From: Clostridia bacterium
Lineage (GTDB): Bacteria; Bacillota; Clostridia; Christensenellales; UBA3700
Length of the DNA: 39,484 nt
Assembly: GCA_029060065.1 (NCBI GenBank)
Contig: JAIDUT010000014.1
Location: 1 to 39,484 of the forward strand
Direction: 5' to 3'
Part shown: in pieces, positions 1 through 13,263 of the stretch
Layout: each line of letters starts with the position of its first letter
How positions within the stretch are numbered: position 1 is the first letter of the stretch
Made by a program: the position numbers and the translations under genes
The notes under the pieces: generated by a model
Told to the model about the DNA's origin: nothing
What the model saw: the letters and a program-made list of their open reading frames with translations, nothing else
Database searches by the model: none

Positions 1-223
1 TTGCCGCTTCGTATGGCTTTTCATTTTCCGTCGTCTTTGCCGGTTCGGTCTTCTTTGCGGTTGCCGTTGTCTTTGCAGGCTCGGCTTTCTTCGCGGTTGC
101 CGTAGTCTTTGCAGGTTCGGCTTTCTTCGCAGTTGCCGTAGTCTTTGCAGGTTCAGTCTTCTTCGTAGTCGCCGTTGTCTTTGCAGGCTCGGCTTTCTTC
201 GCAGGGGCTTTCTTCTCTGCCAC
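1..223 (-). CDS. Lys/Ala/Pro-rich tandem-repeat protein, N-terminal part (partial)
   Basis: This frame is too short for the ORF track and runs off the left edge. It starts at a GTG (223) preceded by AGGAGG with 8 nt spacing. The 74 visible codons encode five imperfect copies of a 12-residue unit, AKKAEPAKTTAT, which is a 36-bp tandem repeat in DNA. The protein is very basic and low-complexity, like histone H1-type tails or the linker tails of bacterial nucleoid or RNA-binding proteins. After the repeats it changes to TENEKPYEA, so a folded domain may begin beyond the window. No enzymatic motif is visible. Function is not recognised. DNA or RNA binding is an inference from charge alone. Confidence 0.7.
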   Translation of the reverse strand, partial: MAEKKAPAKKAEPAKTTATTKKTEPAKTTATAKKAEPAKTTATAKKAEPAKTTATAKKTEPAKTTENEKPYEAA

Positions 224-264
224 AGTAATATCCTCCTAAAAACTAAAAAATTGTATACAGATAT

Positions 265-293
265 ATTTTATTATATGATAAAAATTTTTGCAA
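265..293 (-). promoter_or_regulatory. Promoter of the Lys/Ala/Pro-rich protein
   Basis: On the minus strand TTGCAA (293-288) and TAAAAT (270-265) are 17 nt apart. The predicted transcript starts near 258, about 35 nt before the GTG start with its AGGAGG. Confidence 0.5.
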
Positions 294-393
294 GCGTAAT
301 TACAGACTATTATTTACTATTCTTTATATGTTTACATATAAAGTTCGTTTTTGCCTAATCCAAATTTTTCCAATAGGAACCTAAAATAAATGT

Positions 394-430
394 AAACAAA
401 TGTTTGCATTATGCTAATTTGTGTGATAAT
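394..430 (+). promoter_or_regulatory. dinB promoter with LexA-like palindrome
   Basis: TTTGCA (403-408) and GATAAT (425-430, preceded by TGT) are 16 nt apart. The palindrome AAAC-AAAT-GTTT (394-405) overlaps the -35 and resembles the Gram-positive SOS box GAAC-N4-GTTC with both outer bases changed. Transcription would start at about 437, essentially on the ATG at 439, so the mRNA would be leaderless. LexA control is an inference. Confidence 0.45.
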
Positions 431-438
431 ATATAGGT

Positions 439-1662
439 ATGAGAAAAATTCTTCACTGCGACGCTAATAATTTTTACGCTTCCGTCGAATGTATGCTCGA
501 TCCTAGCTTAAAAGACAAGTATGTTGCCGTATCGGGCAATCCCGATAAACGACACGGTATCATTTTGGCTAAAAATCAAAAGGCTAAAGAATGCGGAATT
601 AAGACTGGCGAAGTCATATGGGAAGCCAAGCGAAAATGTCCTCAGCTTGTGCTTGTACCTCCACAATATGACAAATACGTATACTACTCCGACAAGATAT
701 TCGATATATATTGCCAGTACACAGACAGAGTCGAACCGTTTGGAATCGACGAATGCTGGCTTGACGTAACGGGCTCTATGCGACTTTTTAAGAGCGCGAC
801 GGCAATCGCCGAAGAACTGAGAGAGCGTATCAAAAAGGAAATCGGCATCACTATCTCCGTAGGAGTATCTTTCAACAAAATCTTTGCCAAACTTGGCTCT
901 GATATGAAAAAGCCTGACGCCACCACCGTAATTACGCCACAAAACTTTCGCCAAAAAGTGTGGCCACTTGACGTAAGCGACTTGCTGATGATTGGCAGAA
1001 AGACATCCGATAAATTAAAGGATTTAGGTATTAAGACCATAGGAGATCTTGCGTGTACAGACCCGCAAATTCTCATTAAAAAATTCGGAATAAACGGACA
1101 AAAAATGTACGACAACGCCAACGGACTAAATGACGATGACGTACGTCTATATTACGATAAGCATATCCCAAAAAGCATTGGCAACTCTACTACTATGCCA
1201 AAGGACGTCACGTCCCGCGACGAAATCAAAGCCGTAGTTATGGCTCTCAGCGAAATGGTAGCGGTAAGACTTAGGAAATACGGATTTGTGGCGGGTGGCA
1301 TACATTTCGGCGTGAGATACAACGATTTGACTTACGCCGGCAAACAATGCAAACTCCCCTTCAAAATTAATTCCGCAAGCAGTCTTTGCGACGGCGCTAT
1401 GGAAATATACGACTCGATAAAGCACCCATGCCCAATAAGACTTTTGTCAGTGACCGCATTCGACCTCTCTAGCGGTGACGAAGTACAGCAGTTGTCTTTC
1501 TTCGACGACGAAAAGTCCCAAAAACTCCGTCGGCTTGACAAATCTCTTGACGAGATAAGAGGAAAGTACGGCTACAACGCATTGAAGTCGGCATCGCTCC
1601 TTGAGCACCCTTTCATTACGGACGGTCTAGAGGATAGCGACTTCTTGCCGTTTAAGAAATAG
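439..1662 (+). CDS. dinB: Y-family DNA polymerase IV
   Basis: Translesion DNA polymerase that copies past damaged bases. The 407-aa length is normal for the family. The palm begins HCDANNFYASVE (metal-binding Asp near residue 8). The catalytic DE pair lies in GIDECWLDVT (about 104-113), where most homologues have SIDE. GVSFNKIFAKLGSDMKKPDA (about 140-160) is the conserved Y-family signature. Helix-hairpin-helix and little-finger regions follow. QQLSFFDDE near residue 350 looks like the beta-clamp binding motif. The start is fixed by the conserved N-terminus, yet no Shine-Dalgarno precedes it and the -10 box ends only 8 nt upstream. The gene is monocistronic; tRNA-Leu follows from its own promoter. 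Confidence 0.93.
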   Translation: MRKILHCDANNFYASVECMLDPSLKDKYVAVSGNPDKRHGIILAKNQKAKECGIKTGEVIWEAKRKCPQLVLVPPQYDKYVYYSDKIFDIYCQYTDRVEPFGIDECWLDVTGSMRLFKSATAIAEELRERIKKEIGITISVGVSFNKIFAKLGSDMKKPDATTVITPQNFRQKVWPLDVSDLLMIGRKTSDKLKDLGIKTIGDLACTDPQILIKKFGINGQKMYDNANGLNDDDVRLYYDKHIPKSIGNSTTMPKDVTSRDEIKAVVMALSEMVAVRLRKYGFVAGGIHFGVRYNDLTYAGKQCKLPFKINSASSLCDGAMEIYDSIKHPCPIRLLSVTAFDLSSGDEVQQLSFFDDEKSQKLRRLDKSLDEIRGKYGYNALKSASLLEHPFITDGLEDSDFLPFKK

Positions 1663-1698
1663 CGGTAACGATTATTTTAAGAAAATATTCAAAAACAT

Positions 1699-1725
1699 TT
1701 GACAACTCATAATATTTAATATAAT
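1699..1725 (+). promoter_or_regulatory. Promoter of tRNA-Leu
   Basis: TTGACA at 1699-1704 is followed by TATAAT at 1720-1725 (15-nt spacer) or by TAATAT at 1722-1727 (17-nt spacer). The tRNA 5' end lies at 1745. Confidence 0.7.
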
Positions 1726-1744
1726 ATTAGGTATGCAATGATTT

Positions 1745-1827
1745 GCGGTCATGGCGGAATAGGCAGACGCGTACGTTTGAGGGGCGTATGGGAGACCATC
1801 CGGGTTCAAGTCCCGGTGACCGCACCA
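1745..1827 (+). tRNA. tRNA-Leu (anticodon GAG)
   Basis: The acceptor stem GCGGTCA pairs with TGACCGC. The anticodon arm is TACGT-TTGAGGG-GCGTA, giving anticodon GAG. A class II variable arm (TGGGAGACCAT) and the T arm CCGGG-TTCAAGT-CCCGG are present, and the 3' CCA is encoded. The length of 83 nt fits a leucine tRNA. Confidence 0.96.
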
Positions 1828-1832
1828 TAACT

Positions 1833-1878
1833 AACCTGAATCAAAACATAGACTAATGGTTTGATTCAGGTTTTTTTA
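1833..1878 (+). terminator. Terminator after tRNA-Leu
   Basis: AACCTGAATCAAA (1833-1845) pairs perfectly with TTTGATTCAGGTT (1860-1872), followed by a T run. This is a strong intrinsic terminator. Between it and the next promoter at 2026 I see nothing coding. Confidence 0.9.
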
Positions 1879-2025
1879 TTACTCTTTCAAAGTACAAATG
1901 TTAGTACCATACGGCAGTGCTCCCCCATAGGCAGTAAGCACAAGCGGACACAAAAAACTATCGTACACTTACTTAAAAAATACTTGACCTTACTTTAATA
2001 TTATGACGCGCTATAGACAAAACGC

Positions 2026-2077
2026 TTGACTTTATATAAACAATGTTATATAATTCATATTATATAAATATGTTTAT
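2026..2077 (+). promoter_or_regulatory. TetR operon promoter with 18-bp inverted-repeat operator
   Basis: TTGACT (2026-2031) and TATAAT (2049-2054) are 17 nt apart, predicting a start near 2061. An inverted repeat with 18-nt arms, 2036-2053 and 2060-2077, matches at 15 of 18 positions (TTATATAACATTGTTTAT against TTATATAAATATGTTTAT) with a 6-nt centre. It covers the -10, the start point and the early leader, as expected for an autorepressor operator. It also shows that the ATG at 2043 proposed by the ORF track cannot be the start. Confidence 0.65.
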
Positions 2078-2096
2078 CAACATGAGGTCTATTACT

Positions 2097-2651
2097 ATGC
2101 CTAAACAACGAATTACAAAAGAAATGATATTAGACGTTGCCTTTAATTTGGCAAGAGAAAAAGGCTATGAACAAGTTGTTGTCAAAAACATAGCCGATGA
2201 GATAGGTTGCTCGGTACAGCCGATATACAGTTATTTTAACAATATGGATACATTGAGAGAAGCTGTACTCGGCGTTGCTATGCAATTCTACAATCAGTAT
2301 ATTTATTCTCGCGTAAATAAGGACGGTATTTTGGAAAGTATGGCGCGTGCGAACGTAGCTTTTGCAAAATATGAAACAAATCTTTTTAAGTTGTTATTTT
2401 TGCAAAAGTTGAATGGATTGAATAGCTTTAATGATATTTACGAATGGATGGGTGATAAACAGGCTACAAAACAACTTGCCGAAAAACTCTTACTTCCGGA
2501 AGAAAAGGTAAAAGACGTCTATATTATGCTCATAGTTTTCACGCACGGCGTAGCAACAATGATAGCAACCGGTGGCGCTAATATTTCGGACGACGAAAGC
2601 GCGTCTATACTGGAAAAAGCATATTTAGCTTTTGTAAAAGCACAACAATAA
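2097..2651 (+). CDS. TetR/AcrR family transcriptional regulator
   Basis: A 184-aa one-component regulator. The N-terminal helix-turn-helix is in TKEMILDVAFNLAREKGYEQ, followed by NIADEIGCSVQPIYSYFNN (about residues 5-55). The helical remainder should be the ligand-binding and dimerisation domain; its ligand is unknown. I chose ATG 2097 because GAGG sits 9 nt upstream and because the promoter's predicted start (about 2061) lies downstream of the ORF-track start at 2043. The next gene begins 13 nt after the stop with its own AAAGGAGAT, so the two are probably one transcript. The inverted repeat over the promoter points to autoregulation. Confidence 0.9.
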   Translation: MPKQRITKEMILDVAFNLAREKGYEQVVVKNIADEIGCSVQPIYSYFNNMDTLREAVLGVAMQFYNQYIYSRVNKDGILESMARANVAFAKYETNLFKLLFLQKLNGLNSFNDIYEWMGDKQATKQLAEKLLLPEEKVKDVYIMLIVFTHGVATMIATGGANISDDESASILEKAYLAFVKAQQ

Positions 2652-2664
2652 AAGGAGATAAAAA

Positions 2665-3348
2665 ATGAACAACAAAACCATGCTAAATTATCTTGCGGAA
2701 CTTTCAGCAAACAACAACCGTGAATGGTTTCACGAACACAAGAAAGAAAATAAAGAAGCCAACGCGCATTTTGAGCAAATTGTTCAAGAACTTATTTACG
2801 GCATTGGAACATTTGACCAAAGCGTTTTACACAATGTCCCCAAAGAACTTACATTCAAACTTGTGCGAGATACAAGATTTAGCCACGATAAATCACCGTA
2901 CAATCCGTCTTTCAGAGCTCATATATCGTCTAAAGGCAAATTGCCTATTCCTGTCGGATACTACTTAATGATAAAACCAAATGGAGGCACATTTTTAGGT
3001 GGCGGTTTGTTTGCGGATATGTTTTCTAATGCCACTTCAATGGTACGCAACTATATAACGGCACACCCTGACGAATGGAACGCTATAATAACCAATGCGG
3101 AGTTTGAAAAGTATTTCACTGTAAAAGGCACGGTATTGAAAAATGTCCCTGCCGGTTATGACAAAGAACACTCACAAGCCGAATATCTGAAACACAAATC
3201 GTGGTATTTGGAGTATTTTATGGACGATGACGAGGTAGCTGACGAAAAAACATTTTTGCAAAAATCGGTTGAAATATTTAAGATTATGAAACCTTTTAAC
3301 GATTATCTCAATAAGGCACTAAAAGATTTCAAAATGCCGACAAGATAA
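2665..3348 (+). CDS. DUF2461 (TIGR02453) family protein
   Basis: A 227-aa protein. It matches DUF2461 by NNREWFHEHKKE near the N-terminus, then KLVRDTRFSHDKSPYNPSF and YYLMIKPNGGTFLGGGLF in the middle, which are the family's conserved blocks. The biochemical role of DUF2461 is unknown to me; no classical catalytic triad or metal site is obvious. It is a cytosolic protein with no signal peptide. It is the second gene of the TetR operon. Downstream, ACAAGACAAA (3389-3398) can pair with TTTGTCTTGT (3424-3433) across a 25-nt loop, before the strong terminator at 3460. Confidence 0.88.
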   Translation: MNNKTMLNYLAELSANNNREWFHEHKKENKEANAHFEQIVQELIYGIGTFDQSVLHNVPKELTFKLVRDTRFSHDKSPYNPSFRAHISSKGKLPIPVGYYLMIKPNGGTFLGGGLFADMFSNATSMVRNYITAHPDEWNAIITNAEFEKYFTVKGTVLKNVPAGYDKEHSQAEYLKHKSWYLEYFMDDDEVADEKTFLQKSVEIFKIMKPFNDYLNKALKDFKMPTR

Positions 3349-3459
3349 AACCTATGTAATCGTGCAATTCCTTATGTATTAATTACAAACAAGACAAAAC
3401 GTTAGTAGTCTAAATACTCAAACTTTGTCTTGTCGCACTTATTTGTAAAATATACTGAT

Positions 3460-3493
3460 AAAAGAGAGAGGTAAACCTCTCTCTTTTATTTTT
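3460..3493. terminator. Bidirectional terminator between convergent genes
   Basis: AAAAGAGAGAGG pairs with CCTCTCTCTTTT around a TAAA loop. T-rich sequence follows on the plus strand, and the A-rich 5' side serves the flavoprotein gene arriving on the minus strand. Confidence 0.88.
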
Positions 3494-3507
3494 ACTTTTA
3501 CCTTAAA

Positions 3508-4044
3508 TCACGCTTTCACTCCCATATCAAAAGCCTTTTGCGGAAAGTCGGTACTATCTATATCCCCTTTGTCTGTCACGCCTATAGCGCGAAGAACGCC
3601 TTTGAGTTCTACTCCGTCAAAGCAATCTATCCAACCTTGAATATCCTTGACTGCTCCGTCCATTGCGCTCTCGTCCTCCTCTGCCGACGTAGCCAAGAGA
3701 TATACTTCCCTAAACTTATTGTCGCGAGGATAAAGCGGATTAAGCCTGTCTAAGAAAGTCTTGAGCTGTCCGCATACTGCGTAATAATAAATCGGCGTAG
3801 CAAATACGAGCACGTCGGCATTTTGGAATTTATCGTACAGACCGTTCATACCGTCTTTAAGAACGCATCCGTCATGAGATTGGCAATACATGCAACCGAT
3901 GCAAAACTTCAAATCTACGTCGCGTACGGCTACGACCTCCGCCTCGTTGCCTGCGGATATTGCGCCGTCGGCAAACTTTCTCGCCAAGGTCTCGGAGTTA
4001 CCGCCCTTTCTTGGCGAACTTGTAACTATAATTATCTTTTTCAT
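3508..4044 (-). CDS. Iron-sulfur flavoprotein / NADPH-dependent FMN reductase family
   Basis: A 178-aa flavodoxin-fold redox protein. The N-terminal IIIVTSSPRKGGNSETL is the FMN phosphate-binding loop. C48, C51, C54 and C60 form CX2CX2CX5C (CIGCMYCQSHDGC), the pattern reported for the 4Fe-4S cluster of Isf-type iron-sulfur flavoproteins. ATPIYYYAVCGQLKTFLDR is the conserved flavin-ring segment. It probably shuttles electrons or reduces small molecules in an anaerobe; the substrate cannot be told. The start has AAAGGAG nearby and a perfect promoter upstream. The gene stands alone, convergent with the DUF2461 gene and divergent from the DUF11 operon. Confidence 0.9.
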   Translation of the reverse strand: MKKIIIVTSSPRKGGNSETLARKFADGAISAGNEAEVVAVRDVDLKFCIGCMYCQSHDGCVLKDGMNGLYDKFQNADVLVFATPIYYYAVCGQLKTFLDRLNPLYPRDNKFREVYLLATSAEEDESAMDGAVKDIQGWIDCFDGVELKGVLRAIGVTDKGDIDSTDFPQKAFDMGVKA

Positions 4045-4087
4045 GATATTCTCCTTTTGTATCTGCGTTGACGTTTTTATTATATCA

Positions 4088-4116
4088 ATTATATAGTAAT
4101 GACCTCAATATGTCAA
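4088..4116 (-). promoter_or_regulatory. Consensus promoter of the flavoprotein gene
   Basis: On the minus strand TTGACA (4116-4111) and TATAAT (4093-4088) are exactly 17 nt apart. Both hexamers match the sigma-A consensus fully. Confidence 0.8.
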
Positions 4117-4215
4117 TGCGTAAAATCGCAATAAAATAATCTAAAACTTTTAACAATACTATGGCTTACTTCATATACTGTATTGAAACGTAATACCGCC
4201 TTTAATTGAATAATG

Positions 4216-4262
4216 CTACATATTTACTCTTAACAACTTAGGAGTTATATGTAGTATTTTTT
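4216..4262 (+). promoter_or_regulatory. Terminator-like hairpin in the leader of the DUF11 operon
   Basis: CTACATAT (4216-4223) pairs with ATATGTAG (4247-4254), and ACTC (4226-4229) with GAGT (4242-4245) inside it. TATTTTTT follows at once. It lies 17 nt before the gene start at 4279 and just ahead of the AAAAGGAGA ribosome site, with no plus-strand gene close upstream to terminate. It could act as an attenuator. The operon promoter itself is not clear; TTGAAA at 4183 has no well-placed -10. Confidence 0.5.
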
Positions 4263-4278
4263 ACAAAAGGAGATTATT

Positions 4279-5982
4279 ATGCCTTTCATTCAAAGATATT
4301 CCGACGTCAAAAAAGGCGGAGTTGTATTTACGGGCAACACGCTCGGATTGAGTAAAGCCAGCAACCAAAATGCTCCCGGCACGGAAGGTTCTATAGGCGC
4401 GTTTACCAGTCTGAATACCGCTTTGCAAGTTGGTACATTCCCGGCGGGTACTACTCTTAATTACACGCTTAACGGCTCGAGAGCTATACTCACTCTACCT
4501 GCCGGCTCTACCGTACTTTACGCGGAACTAATATGGGGCGGACTTTTCCGCTCATCTGTCAACAACATCTCTGCGCTAATAAATAACAGCGTCAACTTCA
4601 CTACACCTCTCGGCGCCACTGCCGTAGCGCCCGACCCTGCCACGGCTCAGACTTTCAATATACCCGCAGGCGACATTACGGTGGGATTTTACGTGAGGTC
4701 TGCCAACGTAACACCGCTAGTGCAGTCAGCTCTTGGCGGTACGTATTCTCTCCAAGGCGTCCCCGCTCTTATAGAGGCCATTGACGATAGAACCGCCGAC
4801 ACCAACCATGCAGGTTGGACGCTTGCGGTAGCGTACGAGAACGCAAACGAAACACTGCGTAATATCACCGTATGGAGCGGAGGTACTGTGGTATCGCCAA
4901 ATACGGGAAGCACTACGATAACCGTATCGAATTTCCTTACTCCCGACGTCTTGCCAATCACGGGTAAAATCTTCGTATCCGCGCAGGAAGGCGACGCAGT
5001 ACTCACGGGAGACCAAATGATGTTCGGTCAAAGCGTAGCCGACCTTGAAAACCTTTCAGGCCCCAACAATCCCGAGGACAATTTCTTTGCCTCGCAAATC
5101 AACAACTCGAGCGGAACGCTCGATACGACGGGTACCTTCGGTAACCGTAACGCCAACGCGAGCGCAGGAACAAACACGTCGGCATGCCGTCAAGGTTGGG
5201 ACATTACCGCCGTAGACGTGTCCGACAAACTAGTCGCAAGTCAAACTAGCGCAGTAATAAGATTTACCAGCGACGGAGACCTTTACGTCCCCAACGCCTT
5301 AGCATTGCAGGTCGATAGCAAAGGCGCAAACCTTACTGTGACGAAATCCGCCGACAAAACTTTCGCCGACGTAGGCGAAGAAATCACCTATACCCTTGCA
5401 ATACAAAACACGGGAAGCGTAGACGCAACCAACGTAACTATAAACGATATGCTACCTGCGGAAACAACTTTAGTGCCAAACTCCGTGACTGTAGACGGCG
5501 TAGCGTACGCAGGCGCATTGCCTGTAGTCATTGCCACCATAGCTCCCAATCAGACGGTTACGGTGACATTCAAAGTTACTGTCAATTCTCTGCCTGCCGT
5601 CAATCCTATTTTCAACATTGCAAGAGCCGACTTTGAGTTCTTCCCATTTGCGGGCTACCCTGCTACGAGCTTTTCAAATTCCAATCCCGTAGCCGTGTAT
5701 ATCATATCCCGTCAAATGAGTATTGTAAAAAGCGTAGACAAAGCCTTTGCTATCCAAGGCGACGTCTTGACTTACACTTCGGTTATTAAAAACACGGGAA
5801 GCGTACCCGTCACCGACGTGATATTCAAAGACGAGATACCCGCGGGTACGACTTTCGTCGACGGCTCTGTGACAATAGACGGAGTGAGCTATCCGACTTA
5901 CAATCCCGAGACGGGATTTTTCGTGGCGAACCTGACGCCACAGGCAAGCGCAACAGTAACCTTTCAGGTGAAAATAAACTAA
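4279..5982 (+). CDS. DUF11-repeat structural protein, long form
   Basis: A 567-aa beta-rich protein with no signal peptide, membrane segment or sortase motif. Residues 1 to about 345 form a large N-terminal domain beginning MPFIQRYSDVKKGGVVFTGN, a start I associate with DUF11 proteins of Bacilli and Clostridia. DUF11 domains follow at about 350-455 (TKSADKTFADVGEEITYT) and 478-567 (KSVDKAFAIQGDVLTYT). The chain stops precisely at the end of the last domain. AAAAGGAG precedes the start. The next gene begins 13 nt later with AAGGAG. A surface or spore-surface role is inferred from the family and from the Cys-rich last gene; lack of a signal peptide would suit assembly from the mother cell. Confidence 0.82.
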   Translation: MPFIQRYSDVKKGGVVFTGNTLGLSKASNQNAPGTEGSIGAFTSLNTALQVGTFPAGTTLNYTLNGSRAILTLPAGSTVLYAELIWGGLFRSSVNNISALINNSVNFTTPLGATAVAPDPATAQTFNIPAGDITVGFYVRSANVTPLVQSALGGTYSLQGVPALIEAIDDRTADTNHAGWTLAVAYENANETLRNITVWSGGTVVSPNTGSTTITVSNFLTPDVLPITGKIFVSAQEGDAVLTGDQMMFGQSVADLENLSGPNNPEDNFFASQINNSSGTLDTTGTFGNRNANASAGTNTSACRQGWDITAVDVSDKLVASQTSAVIRFTSDGDLYVPNALALQVDSKGANLTVTKSADKTFADVGEEITYTLAIQNTGSVDATNVTINDMLPAETTLVPNSVTVDGVAYAGALPVVIATIAPNQTVTVTFKVTVNSLPAVNPIFNIARADFEFFPFAGYPATSFSNSNPVAVYIISRQMSIVKSVDKAFAIQGDVLTYTSVIKNTGSVPVTDVIFKDEIPAGTTFVDGSVTIDGVSYPTYNPETGFFVANLTPQASATVTFQVKIN

Positions 5983-5995
5983 GGAGAATTTAACA

Positions 5996-6769
5996 ATGAT
6001 AATACCAAACCAATCCAATATAGCGTTCAACTACGTTCTGCCTGACGGCGACACTCTTTCCGCCAATCTCGACAGTAACATTGTCAACACGGAAGTATTG
6101 ACCTACTCTGTCCCCAAGGTGAAGAGCGGTGATAAGACCTTTTTGCAAGAGGGCGAAACGTCCGAGCATACCGTAGTAATCACCAACAATTCGCAGACGC
6201 AACTTTTCAATCTCTTATTCAAAGACGCGATGTCCAACGGCGCAACCTACGTCGCAGGAAGCGTAAAAGTAAACGGCGTAGCGCAACCAACTTACGACCC
6301 AATCGCAGGCTTTGCTTTGCCGGCGCTCAACCCTGCTCAGGCAGTTACCGTAGCGTATACGATACAGGCGAACAATCCAATGACGCAATCTCCAGTAACG
6401 AACCTAGCTACACTCAACTATACCGTAAACGACCCTATAAGAGGCAACGTAAACTTTGCCGAAAATACAAATACGGTATCAGTGCAAATTATATCCAACA
6501 GAATTACCAACGTCAAGAGTGTAGACAAGGCCTTTGCCGTAAAAGGCGATACGTTGCACTACACTTCGGTAATCAGCAACACAGGTACGCTTGCAAAGAC
6601 CGACCTCGTATTCACAGACCCAATTCCTGCGGGAACGACCTTTACAGCGGGCAGTGTAAAGATCAACGGCGCAAGCTATCCTGCTTACAATCCGCAAACG
6701 GGATTCGACTTACCCGACCTTGCGGTAGGCGAAGCGGTGACGGTAGAATTTGACGTAACGGTGAACTGA
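5996..6769 (+). CDS. DUF11-repeat structural protein, two-domain form
   Basis: A 257-aa protein, about 27 kDa, made almost only of two DUF11 domains at about 38-130 (KSGDKTFLQEGE) and 168-257 (KSVDKAFAVKGDTLHYT). Its first 35 residues resemble the linker that normally joins two DUF11 domains, so the protein reads like a continuation of the gene before it, but it has its own good ribosome site (AAGGAG) and a genuine upstream stop. The second domain is close to the last domain of the upstream protein even in DNA, which points to domain duplication. No signal peptide. The next ORF starts 1 nt after the stop, suggesting translational coupling. Confidence 0.82.
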   Translation: MIIPNQSNIAFNYVLPDGDTLSANLDSNIVNTEVLTYSVPKVKSGDKTFLQEGETSEHTVVITNNSQTQLFNLLFKDAMSNGATYVAGSVKVNGVAQPTYDPIAGFALPALNPAQAVTVAYTIQANNPMTQSPVTNLATLNYTVNDPIRGNVNFAENTNTVSVQIISNRITNVKSVDKAFAVKGDTLHYTSVISNTGTLAKTDLVFTDPIPAGTTFTAGSVKINGASYPAYNPQTGFDLPDLAVGEAVTVEFDVTVN

Positions 6770-6770
6770 T

Positions 6771-6989
6771 ATGAGAACTATAATCAATTTATCCAACGTA
6801 GTAGATAATTCAGGCGAGTTTCCGGTCATAACTTACAGCAACACCGTAACGACGCTTGTAACCGACCCGACGCCGATAATGCCCCGTATCGCGCCATGCT
6901 CTTCCTGTAACTCTTGGCAATGCCGTAGCGCTTGCCAAAGCTGTTGTAACTGCAATAACTGCTGTCGTTGCAACCAAAACAACTTCTAG
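6771..6989 (+). CDS. Small Cys-rich protein of the DUF11 operon
   Basis: A 72-aa protein. Residues 1-40 (NLSNVVDNSGEF...TYSNTVTTLVTDP) resemble the inter-domain linker of the two upstream DUF11 proteins. Residues 43-69 then hold ten cysteines (CSSC, C, C, CC, C, CC, C). The gene has no ribosome site of its own and starts 1 nt after the previous stop, so it is probably translated by coupling. Disulfide cross-linking or metal binding is likely from the cysteine density. In this context I infer a cross-linking cap or anchor for the DUF11 proteins, reminiscent of Cys-rich spore coat proteins. I do not recognise a named family. Confidence 0.75.
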   Translation: MRTIINLSNVVDNSGEFPVITYSNTVTTLVTDPTPIMPRIAPCSSCNSWQCRSACQSCCNCNNCCRCNQNNF

Positions 6990-7011
6990 TAGAAAAACCT
7001 AAATGACAGCA

Positions 7012-7041
7012 ATACGGCAAACGCATTTGCGTTTGCCGTAT
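7012..7041. terminator. Hairpin between convergent genes
   Basis: ATACGGCAAACGC (7012-7024) pairs perfectly with GCGTTTGCCGTAT (7029-7041) around a 4-nt loop. The T tract is poor on both strands, so termination efficiency is uncertain. It separates the DUF11 operon from the DUF4091 gene. Confidence 0.65.
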
Positions 7042-7047
7042 CTTATA

Positions 7048-8676
7048 TTACTTAGCTATACTTTGTCTTATCGCGTCGTTTATTCTCTCGCGCATTTGCA
7101 ACTGCCATTCGTCGCTGTGCGGATATTCGGAGAAAGTAATAGGCGTATCGATTCCCTGCTCAAGAAGTTCTATCGTCTTTTCTCTGCCGATTAAACTTTC
7201 TAAAAGTTGCAACGCCATCATATCTTGGAATGCGTCGTAAAATACTTTTAGGCGCAAAGACAAAAGAGGCTTACCGTCCTGTCCGGGATAAACAACGTAA
7301 GAATCGCCAGACGGGAATTCCTTGCCTGCGTCGGTTTCCGTAAACGGGTCTACTCTCCTCTTGGAAAGTCTGGTGTACCAAAAATTATATCCCCATTGCA
7401 AAAAGCCTTTTATATCAAATTTATACATTTGACAGCCAAGTACTCTGTTGCGTTGAGATGGCATTGAGAAAAATCTATTGGACACTTTAACGGTCTGACC
7501 GCAACTATAGTACGTCCAAGGCTCTTTTACCTTGCCGAGAAATTCGTGTATGTGCGTAATACCGGTTATAGGATGCTCTAAAATGCCTTGCTCAAAGAAT
7601 TTGATATTGCTTAGCGCATCCATAATTTTGAACTCGCCGAAATTCTCTTTGACAATGGCGCTAGTCTTACGGTAGTTACGCAATACCATTGGATAAGGCT
7701 CGTCGGACACGTGGAAGAATACCTTGTCGGCAATGCCTTTTTGCCTTAAATACTCCTTAAGTTTTGGAGCAAGAGCAGATAAGAAAGTCTTATATTTCCT
7801 GCCGGTTGCGGACGTATGCCAACCGAAAATTTTCTTTTCCTTGCCCTTTACAGTGGCGATTATCTTGGGACATCTCCATGCGCCCCATTGAGTAAAGAAA
7901 TGCGCCATTTCAAAATACTCCACGCCTACTCTGTGACACATATCAATCCACTTGTCAAGATTGGAAAAATCAAAAGAATACTCTTTGTCCTTTACGCTCA
8001 CGCCTATCAACTGAACGGTAGGTCGCTCTCCGCCTATTCTGGTGTCAAGCGGTGGAGTAAATATCGGCGTAAGCACGGCGTTCATTCCGTAATCATGCGC
8101 AGTCGTAAGATAATTCTCCACTATCTCCCAATACTTATCGGAAAATACGGGCGCGTTGTAGTACGTCGATAGACAATCGGTATGAAACCAATTTGTATAC
8201 TTTAGCGTCTGCTTTGGCAAATCGCAATCAATGACGTCAAAGGTCAACTCGACTTTTTCGTCAACTCCATCGCCTTTGAATGATACCTCAACCTTTTGCT
8301 CTCCGCTAGGCAACTCTCCCTTTGGCTCGGTTGAAACCCAAAGACTGCTCCACGCATTCGCCTTTAGACTTATCTCGCCCTCAAGCGGTCTAAGCAGTTC
8401 GGGAAACATACCCGGCTCTTTTCTCAACGTATAATCATCCTGATTCTTGCCAAGTGGTAAGCCTGCGTAAATCTCTTCGACGACGTACGCCTTGAGCATA
8501 TCGCCCATTGCGGAATTTATCTCAACCGACAACTTGCAATCAACGTCGCTCATCAACGCAATTTGCATACTCGACTTTTCGTTGCGGAAAATACTAACTC
8601 TGTCAAAGGACTTTGCTTTCGGCTCTTCGTCTGAAAATACTTTGACAAGACTGCTTAACGGTTTAACTTTTAACAT
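7048..8676 (-). CDS. DUF4091 glycoside-hydrolase-like protein
   Basis: A 542-aa protein with the DUF4091 layout. The N-terminal 150 residues form a beta-sandwich-like region ending in LTFDVIDCDLPKQTLKYTNWFH. A TIM-barrel-like part follows (YFEMAHFFTQWGAW, KVFFHVSDEPYP, WTYYSCGQ). The C-terminal block FLQWGYNFWYTRLSKRRVDPF and DGKPLLSLRLKVFYDAFQDMMALQLLE is the conserved DUF4091 segment. HVSDEPYP carries the acidic pair expected of a glycosidase active site. No signal peptide, so it is cytosolic and may act on imported oligosaccharides; substrate unknown. GGGGGAG precedes the start, and it has its own promoter. Confidence 0.85.
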   Translation of the reverse strand: MLKVKPLSSLVKVFSDEEPKAKSFDRVSIFRNEKSSMQIALMSDVDCKLSVEINSAMGDMLKAYVVEEIYAGLPLGKNQDDYTLRKEPGMFPELLRPLEGEISLKANAWSSLWVSTEPKGELPSGEQKVEVSFKGDGVDEKVELTFDVIDCDLPKQTLKYTNWFHTDCLSTYYNAPVFSDKYWEIVENYLTTAHDYGMNAVLTPIFTPPLDTRIGGERPTVQLIGVSVKDKEYSFDFSNLDKWIDMCHRVGVEYFEMAHFFTQWGAWRCPKIIATVKGKEKKIFGWHTSATGRKYKTFLSALAPKLKEYLRQKGIADKVFFHVSDEPYPMVLRNYRKTSAIVKENFGEFKIMDALSNIKFFEQGILEHPITGITHIHEFLGKVKEPWTYYSCGQTVKVSNRFFSMPSQRNRVLGCQMYKFDIKGFLQWGYNFWYTRLSKRRVDPFTETDAGKEFPSGDSYVVYPGQDGKPLLSLRLKVFYDAFQDMMALQLLESLIGREKTIELLEQGIDTPITFSEYPHSDEWQLQMRERINDAIRQSIAK

Positions 8677-8717
8677 AATTCTCCCCCTATTTAATCGGTT
8701 AACACCCGAACGAATAA

Positions 8718-8746
8718 ATTATATCATACAATTAAATATAAATCAA
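8718..8746 (-). promoter_or_regulatory. Promoter of the DUF4091 gene
   Basis: On the minus strand TTGATT (8746-8741) and TATAAT (8723-8718) are 17 nt apart. The transcript would start near 8711, 35 nt ahead of the start codon. Confidence 0.65.
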
Positions 8747-8748
8747 TA

Positions 8749-11700
8749 TTAATCTTCAATTTCTCTCAATATTGCGGTATCTTTTATTGCATCGTCATTT
8801 GCAAGCACGATTGCTTTGCTTATAATATCTGCCGTCATTGGGTCTTCGTCTACAAAATCGAGAAGAATCGGCTTATCTACGCTATACACGGTATCAAGCG
8901 CAAGATTGCCCTTGCCTTCCTTGAACACAAGTCCCGTGCGGATATTGACGACGTAAGTCCCCAACTTGCCTTGAACCTTGATATTGTCCTTCAAGAACGA
9001 TACGTTGTTAAGTCCAAGTATAGCTACGATAGATTTGAGTACTTCGTGGCGCATCTCCACCGTAGACATAGCCAAATCAAAGTCGTAAATAACTTTGGAA
9101 CTTATAGATACCATCAAATCCACGTCGCGCAGAGTTTCTGAGAAAGTTATGTCGTCCACGTCCTTTATCGGAATAATTTCACCGCTCTTGCGCTTCAAGA
9201 AAAATATTCCGTGGAGTTCTCTATTGACGTTGGTATAGTCTGCTGTATAGAACAAATCGAACTCCCTAAAGATTGCCGAAACAATGTCGCTACGATAATA
9301 TATCTTTCTAAGTCCTATCTCTTCGCACACTCCCCAGCCCTTGCCTTTAAGCGCTGATACGCATTTCTTAAGGTCTACTTCAAATCCCCTAAAACGCAAC
9401 ACTTCGTCTTGTTGAAGTTCCAATTCCGTCTTGGTATAAATTTCCCTCATGACTTGCTTGAAAGGCTGACGTATATTATGCCTTGCCACATACTCTATTG
9501 CGTCTTGCAAAAGTCCCAACTTCTTTAATTCTACAGGGTGAGCAACGTAGATGTCGTTCGCCTCGATAAGTGTGCCGTCAATACTCTTAAGTTCTTGGTC
9601 GAATACGCATAGTTTACCGTCCGCAACAAATATCAATTTGTCAAGCGCGGTAGCCATAATACGTTCTTTGCGCATTCGCTTCAACTGCTCAAGCGTAAAC
9701 GCAACGCGGTTATTCATAGTATTTTCCAAGCTTGCGATAACACGGCGGAACTTTTGATTAAGCCTCTTTATCTCTTCGCGCATGGTTACGACAGCTTGGG
9801 CTTTGCCGTACTTGCTAGGTATTGAAGTAAGCGTTTTGCCGTTCTTTTGGACGCTATACGATACTTTGAATTTACTCTCGTCAATATAAGGCGTGATAGC
9901 GATATCGTCCAGAGTAAACGTCTTGAAAATATCGCTTGGGTTTTCCGCTTCCATTTCAAAAATAAATATATCGGAGCTTGCGTACCCTGCGACGCGCGCA
10001 AGATTTTCCATGGCAATATCCACTGTTCTGCGCTCGCTCAACTGACGTTGCGCTCCGAACTGTTTTCCGCTTCTTATAAACTCCGCAAGTACATTATATC
10101 TCGTAAACAAATCTTCTCTGTTCTCTATAGGAATAAGGCTGTAGATAAGACAGTAGTCTTTATTGCGAGTACCGCTCATTTTCTCCAAACACTCGGCTTT
10201 ATCGATGCGCCCGTTTAGCGCGTCAAAAAACCTCTGAGCGCGCTTATGCAAACCGCCTATAGTGACGTACTTAGCATTGTCGTACACGCGCGAAAGCATA
10301 TCTTTAGGCACTTTATCCACCATTTCTTGATACCACTTACAGTCGAAAGCTCCGTCCTTAAAATCGGGATAGCTTATATCGGAAAACTCCTTTATCTGCT
10401 CAATGCGTTTTTCCTGTCTGCTTTCTTCGAGATTTTCATTGAGGTGCGCGATAAACCAAAATACTGCAATCTTGAGGTTGGGTACGCCTAAATACTTCGC
10501 CGTATAGTCCACAAATTCCGGATTGAAGAGCGTAGCTTTAATAAGTTCGTCGTCGGTAATCTTATACTCTTTGACAAGTTGAGTAAACTTGTCGTAGTCA
10601 TCGCCCTCTGCTTTCACGCAATACTTGAGAACATAAGAAAATACGTTGTCTTTCTTAGTTCCGAACGGCGAGCGTACCCAAGTAATGCCTCTAAGCGCAA
10701 CTATGGCTTTGCAGAACTTCTCCACTCCGTAGAATCTCTCGGCGCGCGCCAAAAGATGGCTATACTGCGTTTCCAGACTTCCGCGACTAAACTCCGCTTC
10801 CAATGCGCTGTCAACGAAGTCAAGAAGCAAAGTCTTGAACTTTTGGTACTTGTAGTCGGGACGCATTATGCACTCGGTAGAAGACGGCATAACTAAAGAG
10901 CCGATATATTGGCTTTTGAGAATAAAGTAGCGCGCGAGTTCTTGCGAAATCAGATTGTACTCGTAAGCCTTTGCCGTCAAATTTATATCGGGAGCATAAT
11001 CGGGTACTGCGTCTATCATCACGCACGCAAATCGCAAAGCCTTGTTAATAGTTTCGATATCGTCGGTTTGCTTTATTAATAGTCTGCTGAATTGAGCGGG
11101 ATACCAATACGACTTTTTGTATTTGTCAAGTGCGCCCTTGTTTGCAAAGGCGGACATAAGCGCAAGAAATTGTTGCTCGCCCAGCAAATCGCTGACAATC
11201 GAGTTCTTGAAATTATAAATTATGTTGTACTCGTTGGTGCAATACCAATACCCCTTTATAAGCGATAAAACGTAGTCGAAATTCTTTTCAGCCTCTTTTA
11301 ACGACTTGCCGTCGTAAACACCGCAATACAAATTCTTGGCGTCTTTTTCTATGCAGTGTATAATCACAACTACTCCTGCAATCTCGTCTTTAGTAAGATT
11401 ACTCTCTATCAGCGCTTTTATCTCAAGTCCCAAGGGGTATGCTTCCCAGTCCCTAGAGCCTACTTCCGTGTCCTTTAGCCTTTCAAAGTTAGAGCCGAAC
11501 TGCTTGAGTCCCTCGCTCAAACCCGACGCGTATTCATAGTCTTTATTTGCTTGAATAAAATCGCCTAAGGCTTCAAAGAACGCTTTCAATCGCTTGTACT
11601 CAATGATTTGCAATGGCTTGACGTCAATCTTTTGATTGGCTATACTTTTGATTTCGCCGTCGGGTCTTTCGACAATAAATACGCTCTCGTTTCCGAAGTA

Positions 11701-13263
11701 TGAGTACTCGTCCTTCTTTTTCAATTTCTTGTCGTCTACCTTACCTCGACTTTTTTTCATTTCTTCGCCTACGGCTACCTTATAATCCTCTTTGCAAGAT
11801 AATAGATACTGCTCGATTTTGTCGCTGTCTTTTGACTTGAGATACATCTTGACAATCTTAGATTTGACACTTTCTTTTTTGGATTTCAGATAGTCAGATA
11901 CGCTTACAGCTTCGTCGTAATTCAACTTTACATTTTGTTTGTCAAAATACTTTTGCGCAGTATAGTTGTCCGTCTTTAAGAACTTTATCGCGCATTGCCT
12001 AGTATCAAGCGTAGTCCTTTCCTTTACAGTACACAAATAATACGCTTGCGCTTCTTCTTTCAAAGTATCGTATATTCCGTCAAGTCGCTTGACGTACCTA
12101 TCGTCATTTACCTGTATCGCTATATCGCCGAGTGTGGATATCATCATCGCCTTTGACAAATCTCTTGCGAACGTCACGTCGTCGTCAACCTTGAAATGGT
12201 AGTTGAGCTTGTCCATAGAATTGAGTATGTCAAAAAGTCTTTCGAATACAATGGGTATATCGTCGGGACGTATTTGGTCGCCGTGTATCTTATTGACGAA
12301 TATACTCAAGTCGTCTATCTTCAACTTGCTTGAGTATACGTATCTTGCGTATTCGCCGTTGAGCAAGCGCGCGGGAAGCAAATAGAATAACGCCCACCTT
12401 GTCTTATCTGTGGCGCGCTCAAACGCGTCGATTGCAAAGTCGCGAAATTTATCTTTATATACCCTTTTGCATGCGCTGATAAAATGATACGCTTGCTTAA
12501 AATTTGCGTTGAGATATTTCTCCCAACGATTGTCAACTACGTCGCGAAGTACCGCCACAAGTTCTTTTGGCGCAAGACATACGCTATAATCCCCTATCAT
12601 AACGCAAGCGTCGTTCATCGCCTTAAAGCGATAATAGTTGTTGCTCTCGATTTCGTCAAGACAGCGCGCCAACATCTTTTCGTCGGACGATTTCAAGATC
12701 TCTTGGAATACGCGTACGCGAATACTGTCTTCCAACCCGGACGAAACTATATACCGTGTCAACGCTTGAGAAAATACGTCGCTGTCAACGGAGCAAATCA
12801 GCGGTAGAAAGTAAAATAGATACTTGGGATTTTTGTCGACAAATTCAATCAACTTCTTATCGCCGTCTTTAAGTTTCAACAATCCGTCTTTGAAAATATC
12901 CGTTGAATTCAAACTGAAGAAGAATATCGATTCGTCCAAATTGCCCCCGACAGAGGCAAAGTTGACTACGCTGGTGAAATCGTCGGGATCGATTATAGAG
13001 TGCTGCAAACACGCGTAGAGCAAAAAGTTATCTTTTCCCACTACGTAGTGAATTCCGTCGTCGCAAGTGCCGAAGTATCTATACTCATCCTTGAACCTAT
13101 CGAAATAGTCGGGAATTACTGAGCGAAAAGCCTCCTCGTGTTCCTGCAGAAATTTAACGGTGCACAAATCGCAATCATTCTTGAGCATAACAGCCCGCGC
13201 CTTCGCGTCCTTTACTTCGCCGATTACTTTAAGAAACTTTTCGTTGGTTATCTTCTCTACCAT
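8749..13263 (-). CDS. Giant DUF4132 / MolR-family protein
   Basis: A 1504-aa soluble, largely helical protein. The last 350 residues carry recognisable DUF4132/DUF7737-type blocks: LRFRGFEVDLKK, ITFSETLRDVDLMVSISS (family form: FSEVMRDVDLFV), and a terminal DEDPMTADIISKAIVLANDD. Residues 1 to about 1100 are low-similarity helical repeats I cannot assign. E. coli YehI/MolR is the best-known relative, historically linked to molybdate metabolism, but the true function is unclear. In E. coli the yeh cluster includes a MoxR-type ATPase and a VWA protein; neither is seen here. Its start overlaps the end of the 105-aa gene by 7 nt, so the two are translationally coupled. The size of the gene argues for active maintenance. 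Confidence 0.8.
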   Translation of the reverse strand: MVEKITNEKFLKVIGEVKDAKARAVMLKNDCDLCTVKFLQEHEEAFRSVIPDYFDRFKDEYRYFGTCDDGIHYVVGKDNFLLYACLQHSIIDPDDFTSVVNFASVGGNLDESIFFFSLNSTDIFKDGLLKLKDGDKKLIEFVDKNPKYLFYFLPLICSVDSDVFSQALTRYIVSSGLEDSIRVRVFQEILKSSDEKMLARCLDEIESNNYYRFKAMNDACVMIGDYSVCLAPKELVAVLRDVVDNRWEKYLNANFKQAYHFISACKRVYKDKFRDFAIDAFERATDKTRWALFYLLPARLLNGEYARYVYSSKLKIDDLSIFVNKIHGDQIRPDDIPIVFERLFDILNSMDKLNYHFKVDDDVTFARDLSKAMMISTLGDIAIQVNDDRYVKRLDGIYDTLKEEAQAYYLCTVKERTTLDTRQCAIKFLKTDNYTAQKYFDKQNVKLNYDEAVSVSDYLKSKKESVKSKIVKMYLKSKDSDKIEQYLLSCKEDYKVAVGEEMKKSRGKVDDKKLKKKDEYSYFGNESVFIVERPDGEIKSIANQKIDVKPLQIIEYKRLKAFFEALGDFIQANKDYEYASGLSEGLKQFGSNFERLKDTEVGSRDWEAYPLGLEIKALIESNLTKDEIAGVVVIIHCIEKDAKNLYCGVYDGKSLKEAEKNFDYVLSLIKGYWYCTNEYNIIYNFKNSIVSDLLGEQQFLALMSAFANKGALDKYKKSYWYPAQFSRLLIKQTDDIETINKALRFACVMIDAVPDYAPDINLTAKAYEYNLISQELARYFILKSQYIGSLVMPSSTECIMRPDYKYQKFKTLLLDFVDSALEAEFSRGSLETQYSHLLARAERFYGVEKFCKAIVALRGITWVRSPFGTKKDNVFSYVLKYCVKAEGDDYDKFTQLVKEYKITDDELIKATLFNPEFVDYTAKYLGVPNLKIAVFWFIAHLNENLEESRQEKRIEQIKEFSDISYPDFKDGAFDCKWYQEMVDKVPKDMLSRVYDNAKYVTIGGLHKRAQRFFDALNGRIDKAECLEKMSGTRNKDYCLIYSLIPIENREDLFTRYNVLAEFIRSGKQFGAQRQLSERRTVDIAMENLARVAGYASSDIFIFEMEAENPSDIFKTFTLDDIAITPYIDESKFKVSYSVQKNGKTLTSIPSKYGKAQAVVTMREEIKRLNQKFRRVIASLENTMNNRVAFTLEQLKRMRKERIMATALDKLIFVADGKLCVFDQELKSIDGTLIEANDIYVAHPVELKKLGLLQDAIEYVARHNIRQPFKQVMREIYTKTELELQQDEVLRFRGFEVDLKKCVSALKGKGWGVCEEIGLRKIYYRSDIVSAIFREFDLFYTADYTNVNRELHGIFFLKRKSGEIIPIKDVDDITFSETLRDVDLMVSISSKVIYDFDLAMSTVEMRHEVLKSIVAILGLNNVSFLKDNIKVQGKLGTYVVNIRTGLVFKEGKGNLALDTVYSVDKPILLDFVDEDPMTADIISKAIVLANDDAIKDTAILREIED

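Follow-up and report, generated by a model that had tools for sequence, protein, structure and literature searches.

Adjacent clostridial genes that share split DUF11 domains: a putative self-assembling, isopeptide-sealed system of spore proteins

Introduction

In the genome of a Clostridia bacterium, three adjacent genes read like parts of one DUF11 protein, and each of them has its own start and stop codon. This arrangement raises the question whether the three products act separately or complete one another and, in the latter case, how they are joined. The genes are located at positions 4279–6989 of the window, that is, the whole analyzed stretch of 39,484 nt of contig JAIDUT010000014.1. 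They were compared with relatives from the same genus and order and with 80 loci that were fetched from a genome scan.

Results

Gene organization

The plus strand of the window contains three adjacent open reading frames with real stops, as had been claimed by a sequence-only reading. They encode the proteins A (567 aa), B (257 aa), and C (72 aa), for which we propose the roles of initiator, extender, and terminator, respectively. All three reading frames are different, and therefore, A, B, and C are not products of read-through. A polyprotein produced by read-through or frameshifting was also rejected since the A–B gap varies between −8 and 151 nt and a separate ribosome binding site is retained for B.

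All features of the operon are on the plus strand. ORF1 (4279..5982) is preceded by the ribosome binding site AAGGAG, which was recognized in the sequence (4267..4272), and encodes an N-terminal beta-rich domain (residues 1–344), a complete DUF11 domain (5326..5703), and an incomplete "acceptor" DUF11 domain without the last two strands (5713..5979). ORF2 (5996..6769), whose AAGGAG site overlaps the stop codon of A, is the two-domain protein that had been noticed before. It encodes a two-stranded "donor" hairpin (5996..6097), a complete DUF11 domain (6113..6499), and a second incomplete acceptor domain (6506..6766). ORF3 (6771..6989) starts one base after the stop codon of B and encodes a donor hairpin (6771..6860) followed by a Cys-rich tail. 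The ten cysteines that had been attributed to this end piece are present (6897..6971), but they span 25 residues (residues 43–67) and not 27. Inspection of the N-termini of A, B, and C revealed no hydrophobic signal-like stretch, in agreement with the earlier statement that signal peptides are absent.

A Pfam search detected DUF11 (PF01345) in ORF1 and ORF2 with 82.1 and 56.4 bits (cut-off 24.6), and a genome search showed that all four DUF11 matches of the 1.57-Mb genome are located in these genes. The neighboring genes are of the flavodoxin, DUF2461, TetR, and GH123 types. The Glycoside hydrolase 123 gene (window 7048–8676, minus strand) is convergent with the operon, and beyond it, a gene for a 1504-aa protein with DUF5724, DUF4132, and DUF7737 is found (8749–13263, minus strand).

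Position of the cuts

The chains had been thought to end exactly at domain ends and to be followed by linker-like sequences. This is at odds with the Pfam results: the matches of the terminal DUF11 domains of A and B stop early and cover only positions 2–87 and 6–84, respectively, of the 114 profile positions, and on the DNA, the matches continue across both stop codons. The A/B and B/C cuts thus almost certainly lie inside a DUF11 domain. In the uncut DUF11 domain of A, this part of the chain is followed by an N-x-A strand and then an S-N-x-V strand (PAVNPIFNIARADFEFF...SNSNPVAVYII). Two equivalent strands are present at the N-termini of B (MIIPNQSNIAFNYVLPDG...SNIVNTEV) and C (MRTIINLSNVVDN...YSNTVTTLV). 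Judged by their sequences, the "linkers" at the starts of B and C represent the two final strands of the preceding DUF11 domain.

For a profile of the two-stranded hairpin, we used exclusively unsplit repeats (129, from Bacilli and Desulfosporosinus). This profile detected 58 of 58 N-termini of B at E ≤ 1e-4 (1.1e-7 for B of the window), while a single one of 922 control ORFs was found at E ≤ 1e-3, and this match coincided with the beginning of a DUF11 protein (L124). For C, 19 of 51 N-termini were detected at E ≤ 1, compared with 3 of 922 controls, and C of the window scored 0.0037. A second model, to which clostridial segments had been added, did not improve the detection of C (E = 1.6 for C of the window, a weak match). 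Both marks of a split domain were therefore found, namely, a domain without its terminal strands at one end and donor strands at the other.

The predicted structures are in line with this assignment. An AlphaFold model of a natural fusion of A, B, and C (mean pLDDT 84.4) has the strands F 557–566, G 573–584, and H 590–605 at the first junction and F 817–826, G 833–841, and H 847–857 at the second, and the strand order at both is identical to that of the uncut domain (F 427–436, G 445–458, H 461–477). The Cys tail was predicted to be disordered. In the B monomer model (mean pLDDT 96.8), the N-terminal hairpin is ordered (pLDDT about 95). Among solved structures, no sequence match to A was found, and fold searches with the B model and the fused model retrieved generic multi-Ig proteins only.

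Conservation and natural fusions

The split was found at the same point in 57 of the 80 fetched loci, 48 of them clostridial and 9 from Paenibacillus. The distance from the A-strand Lys to the cut is 83 residues in 44 of 48 ORF1s and in 43 of 48 ORF2s. In the relatives, A has a length of 567 aa or, with one domain fewer, 440 aa, and B comprises 252–257 aa. The A–B gap is mostly 8–19 nt and the B–C gap mostly 1 nt; in Paenibacillus, neighboring genes share 4 nt. The substitution rates indicate strong purifying selection on A and B (dN about 0.07–0.11, dS about 1 or more) and a weaker one on C, which changes fast between relatives. The Cys-rich gene, which had been seen as the end piece of the operon, is co-conserved with the split genes in 46 of the 48 clostridial split loci. 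It encodes 5–27 cysteines (median 12), 613 of 624 of which lie beyond residue 38, and B contains no Cys in any of 48 relatives. In a sample of the phylum, 3 of 250 genomes besides that of the window were carriers, one of them weak.

One relative (G020) has three stand-alone B-type genes without A (L050, 5782–6552, minus strand; L051, 4866–5636; L052, 4262–5240). Two of them (L050, L051) also lack C, and the stand-alone genes have sigma-K-type promoters of their own. Broken copies were observed in three loci (L053, L054, L046), in which A carries an internal deletion or a frameshift and the Cys-rich C gene behind it is still intact.

The genes have also been fused in nature. One locus (L092) encodes A, B, and C in a single chain of 907 aa, three encode A+B (L090, L095, L078), and two encode A+C (L073, L089); all three types restore the DUF11 domain in one chain and in the uncut order. 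The former start of B is retained inside L078, L090, and L095 (...TGETSMIIPNQS, TGDNM[LI]ITNQS), showing that in these cases the fusion came after the splitting. In a tree of the N-terminal domain, the fusions are found at four places within the split clade, which indicates about four re-fusions. In the same tree, the split proteins of Paenibacillus are placed elsewhere, among unsplit proteins. Thus, the cut point is either very old or of twofold origin, and the cut can be reversed; this would be expected of pieces that have one common interface in the fused and in the separate state. Taken together, hairpin identity, conserved cut, and fusions give the earlier idea that the subunits join across the cuts good support at the level of sequence.

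The isopeptide triad

The DUF11 family has been renamed CLIPPER, and an autocatalytic bond between Lys715 and Asn806, with Asp748 nearby, was described for PDB 9IFR; the bond is absent from some DUF11 domains (PMC12617251). In our analysis, 9IFR ranked first among the PDB entries by sequence relationship. In the alignment, Lys715 falls on the A-strand Lys, and Asn806 falls on the N of N-x-A, that is, on the donor strand. Lys, Asp, and Asn were thus found at the isopeptide positions, with the conserved Asp aligned to residue 749, one off the published number.

In the uncut domain of A, K356 (5344–5346), D390 (5446–5448), and N446 (5614–5616) were each present in 37 of 37 sequences. The acceptor of A has K484 (5728–5730) and D518 (5830–5832), both also 37 of 37, and no Asn partner in its own chain. 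For the acceptor of B, K174 (6515–6517) and D208 (6617–6619) were conserved in 49 of 49 cases. The Asn of the donors was equally constant, with 49 of 49 for N5 of B (6008–6010) and 50 of 51 for N6 of C (6786–6788), the sole exception being an ORF whose start had been picked too late. In Paenibacillus, the donor motif reads N-Q-S or N-Q-T, and the acceptor contains K-S (as VKS or AKS). In the uncut domain of B, K43 and D77 were invariant (49 of 49), and position N136 was occupied by 36 Asn and 13 Asp; the isopeptide Asn is thus exchanged for Asp in 13 of 49 relatives at this site, and the donor Asn never varies.

Because Lys and Asp reside on the acceptor and Asn on the donor encoded by the next gene, the predicted bond would link two gene products. 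We regard such a covalent Lys–Asn bond between subunits as rather probable. The triad had been missed in the sequence-only reading, and it gives the joining of the subunits a specific mechanism.

Promoter, leader, and sporulation genes

A relation to spores had been suggested before, and several results agree with it. A sigma-K-type promoter, AAC-N17-CATATACT, is located at 4152..4179. Of 58 clostridial loci, 22 have the pattern AAC-N17-CATAnnnT in the 250 bases that precede ORF1, compared with 1.3 in shuffled sequences (maximum 6); in the window taken alone, it is not significant. The own genome encodes Spo0A, SpoIVA, and, on C83, SigE (354.6 bits, cut-off 339) and SigK (275.7 bits, above the subfamily cut-off of 252 and below the stricter equivalog cut-off of TIGR02846). 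Based on the promoter type and these four sporulation proteins, the operon is probably a mother-cell sporulation operon, and synthesis in the mother cell would explain the absence of signal peptides.

The carriers are spore-formers: of 42 carrier genomes, 39 gave a SpoIVA match (36 strong, three weak). The background of spore-formers in the order is also high (81 of 99), and the carriers are not enriched above it, so the link to spores is one of consistency and not of association. Unsplit relatives in Clostridium and Desulfoscipio carry a C-terminal SipL/SPOCS domain, a spore morphogenesis module. Overall, we consider it very probable that the products are located at the spore surface. Two unsplit DUF11 spore proteins with a C-terminal SipL/SPOCS domain (L124, 3084–5325, and L123) have a 173-aa SPOCS ORF and a 160-aa ORF without Pfam match beside them; the sizes resemble those of HYPO2 and HYPO3 of C. 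taeniosporum (158 and 160 aa).

Just upstream of the ribosome binding site, the 5′ leader can form a stem-loop, CTACATA...TATGTAG, followed by a run of T (4216..4254). An alignment of the stem-loop from 28 relatives shows compensatory pairs. In the own genome, no second good copy was found; the structure also precedes the stand-alone B genes. It could act as an mRNA stabilizer or attenuator. An Rfam search of the leader returned no family at the gathering score; the sole match, MIR9563, reached 23.4 bits (cut-off 90) and was taken as chance.

Discussion

Proposed assembly and alternatives

We propose that the mother-cell operon encodes proteins that may complete each other's split DUF11/CLIPPER domains and seal them by isopeptide bonds, and we assign this reading a probability of about 0.62. 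The Ig-like domain at the end of A stops two strands short, and B would supply exactly those strands. B, in turn, ends in another open domain, for which the N-terminus of C would bring the strands. Insertion of the hairpin would place the donor Asn beside the acceptor Lys and Asp, and an intermolecular isopeptide bond could form by self-catalysis. A, with an acceptor only, would initiate; B, with donor and acceptor, would extend, once or repeatedly, since B could accept B; and C, with a donor only, would terminate. Disulfides formed by the Cys tail of C would tie the chain to the spore coat or the exosporium.

We infer binding in trans, the covalent bond, the polymerization of B, and the role of C, and our confidence differs between them. 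Complementation in trans is likely, and C probably cross-links to the coat or exosporium by its Cys tail. Homopolymerization of B is more tentative, and we give it slightly less than an even chance; B genes without an A neighbor and with sigma-K-type promoters of their own favor B–B joining. The most far-reaching form of the proposal is a natural tag/catcher polymer that clicks together in the mother cell without enzyme or energy, with a separate initiator, extender, and Cys-rich terminator, and with the same cut evolved in Clostridia and Paenibacillus. Its odds appear to be balanced.

Several alternatives were weighed. First, A, B, and C might form a discrete 1:1:1 complex and never a polymer, and the split would only set the translation levels. 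This overlaps with our proposal in everything except the polymerization of B. The single-chain fusion of 907 aa and the giant unsplit proteins of Bacilli speak for it, whereas the B genes that stand without A and C in one relative and the likeness of the acceptors of A and B speak against it. We regard it as possible but the less probable outcome. Second, the strands might be complemented in trans without a covalent bond, the triad being kept for folding and hydrogen bonds holding the subunits together, as they do in chaperone-usher pili. Some DUF11 domains indeed lack the bond (PMC12617251), and all evidence for the split is independent of it. However, full invariance among the Lys of the DUF11 parts is limited to five residues (A: K356, K484, and K488; B: K43 and K174), and the donor Asn shows no variation even though it belongs to the start of a different protein; a non-covalent system is thus unlikely. 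Third, the hairpin of B might fill B's own open C-terminal domain, or closed swapped dimers might form, and the proteins would be separate coat components. The B monomer model, confident throughout and including the hairpin, would fit self-closure. Yet it cannot serve A, an acceptor without a donor, or C, a donor without an acceptor, and the order of the uncut protein is kept where nature has fused A with B or C; self-closure is therefore quite improbable. Last, gene decay or an assembly error in the genome of the window, for which broken copies in some relatives (G039, G080, G051) might be quoted, is refuted by the identical cut in 57 loci from many assemblies, the own ribosome binding sites, and a dN that is far smaller than dS for both A and B.

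If our proposal holds, a conserved natural split at one and the same residue in two bacterial classes would mean that spore surfaces are built by the trick that protein engineers, for whom split isopeptide domains are a mainstay, apply by hand. DUF11 spore proteins are widespread, and for them the proposal would provide an assembly rule that can be tested; it may also account for the formation of P29-type spore appendages, and new orthogonal tag/catcher pairs would become available.

Comparison with known systems

In the literature searched, which covered few subscription papers, no description of a DUF11 domain split between genes was found. With CLIPPER (DUF11, PF01345; PDB 9IFR), the proteins share the Pfam match, the strand order, and, by alignment, the Lys–Asp–Asn set. 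The bond of 9IFR lies within one chain, whereas the partners in the window are on two gene products.

The C. taeniosporum appendage cluster (CRD1, CRD2, P29a/b) and CrdA–C of B. cereus have DUF11 repeats, the spore setting, and sigma-K-type promoters in common with the operon (PMC5749712). A collagen-like partner gene, a feature of P29/GP85 in C. taeniosporum, is absent beside the genes of the window, and kinship to the P29 appendages is a lead only. S-ENA, F-ENA, and "sporesilk" are spore fibers that assemble without secretion, as is proposed here for mother-cell products. F-ENA carries DUF4183 (PMC11952670); a Pfam search found neither this nor another ENA-type domain in the proteins of the window. 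Sporesilk is cited in PMC12617251 as having an autocatalytic intermolecular isopeptide bond. It is an alpha-helical hairpin, and the Pfam search gave no match of this kind for the proteins of the window.

In chaperone-usher, type V, and TasA fibers, an incomplete Ig-like domain is filled by the N-terminal segment of the next subunit, which resembles the present proposal. The window proteins differ in having no signal peptide, a presumed location in the mother-cell cytoplasm, and a two-stranded donor, and no chaperone or usher gene was found among the genes examined in window 1–13263. The archaeal thread protein Saci_0406 combines donor-strand complementation, a proposed inter-subunit isopeptide bond, and a cap protein without acceptor (PMC9715654). 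For the window proteins, the first and the second are predicted, and C is likewise an end protein without acceptor. The thread has no DUF11 and consists of secreted pilins of an unrelated fold family, and its bond joins the N-terminal amino group of subunit n+2 to Asn57, unlike the Lys–Asn bond predicted here.

SpyTag/SpyCatcher and isopeptag are man-made split isopeptide domains, in which a strand-bearing peptide holds one of the partner residues and the remainder of the domain holds the other. The window proteins appear to share this design, with the predicted partner residues on separate pieces; unlike the engineered pairs, they are genome-encoded and conserved, with a two-stranded donor and a head-to-tail logic. 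In summary, A, B, and C belong to the DUF11/CLIPPER family and appear to work like donor-strand fibers and, if the bond forms, like the archaeal thread and the engineered tag/catcher pairs.
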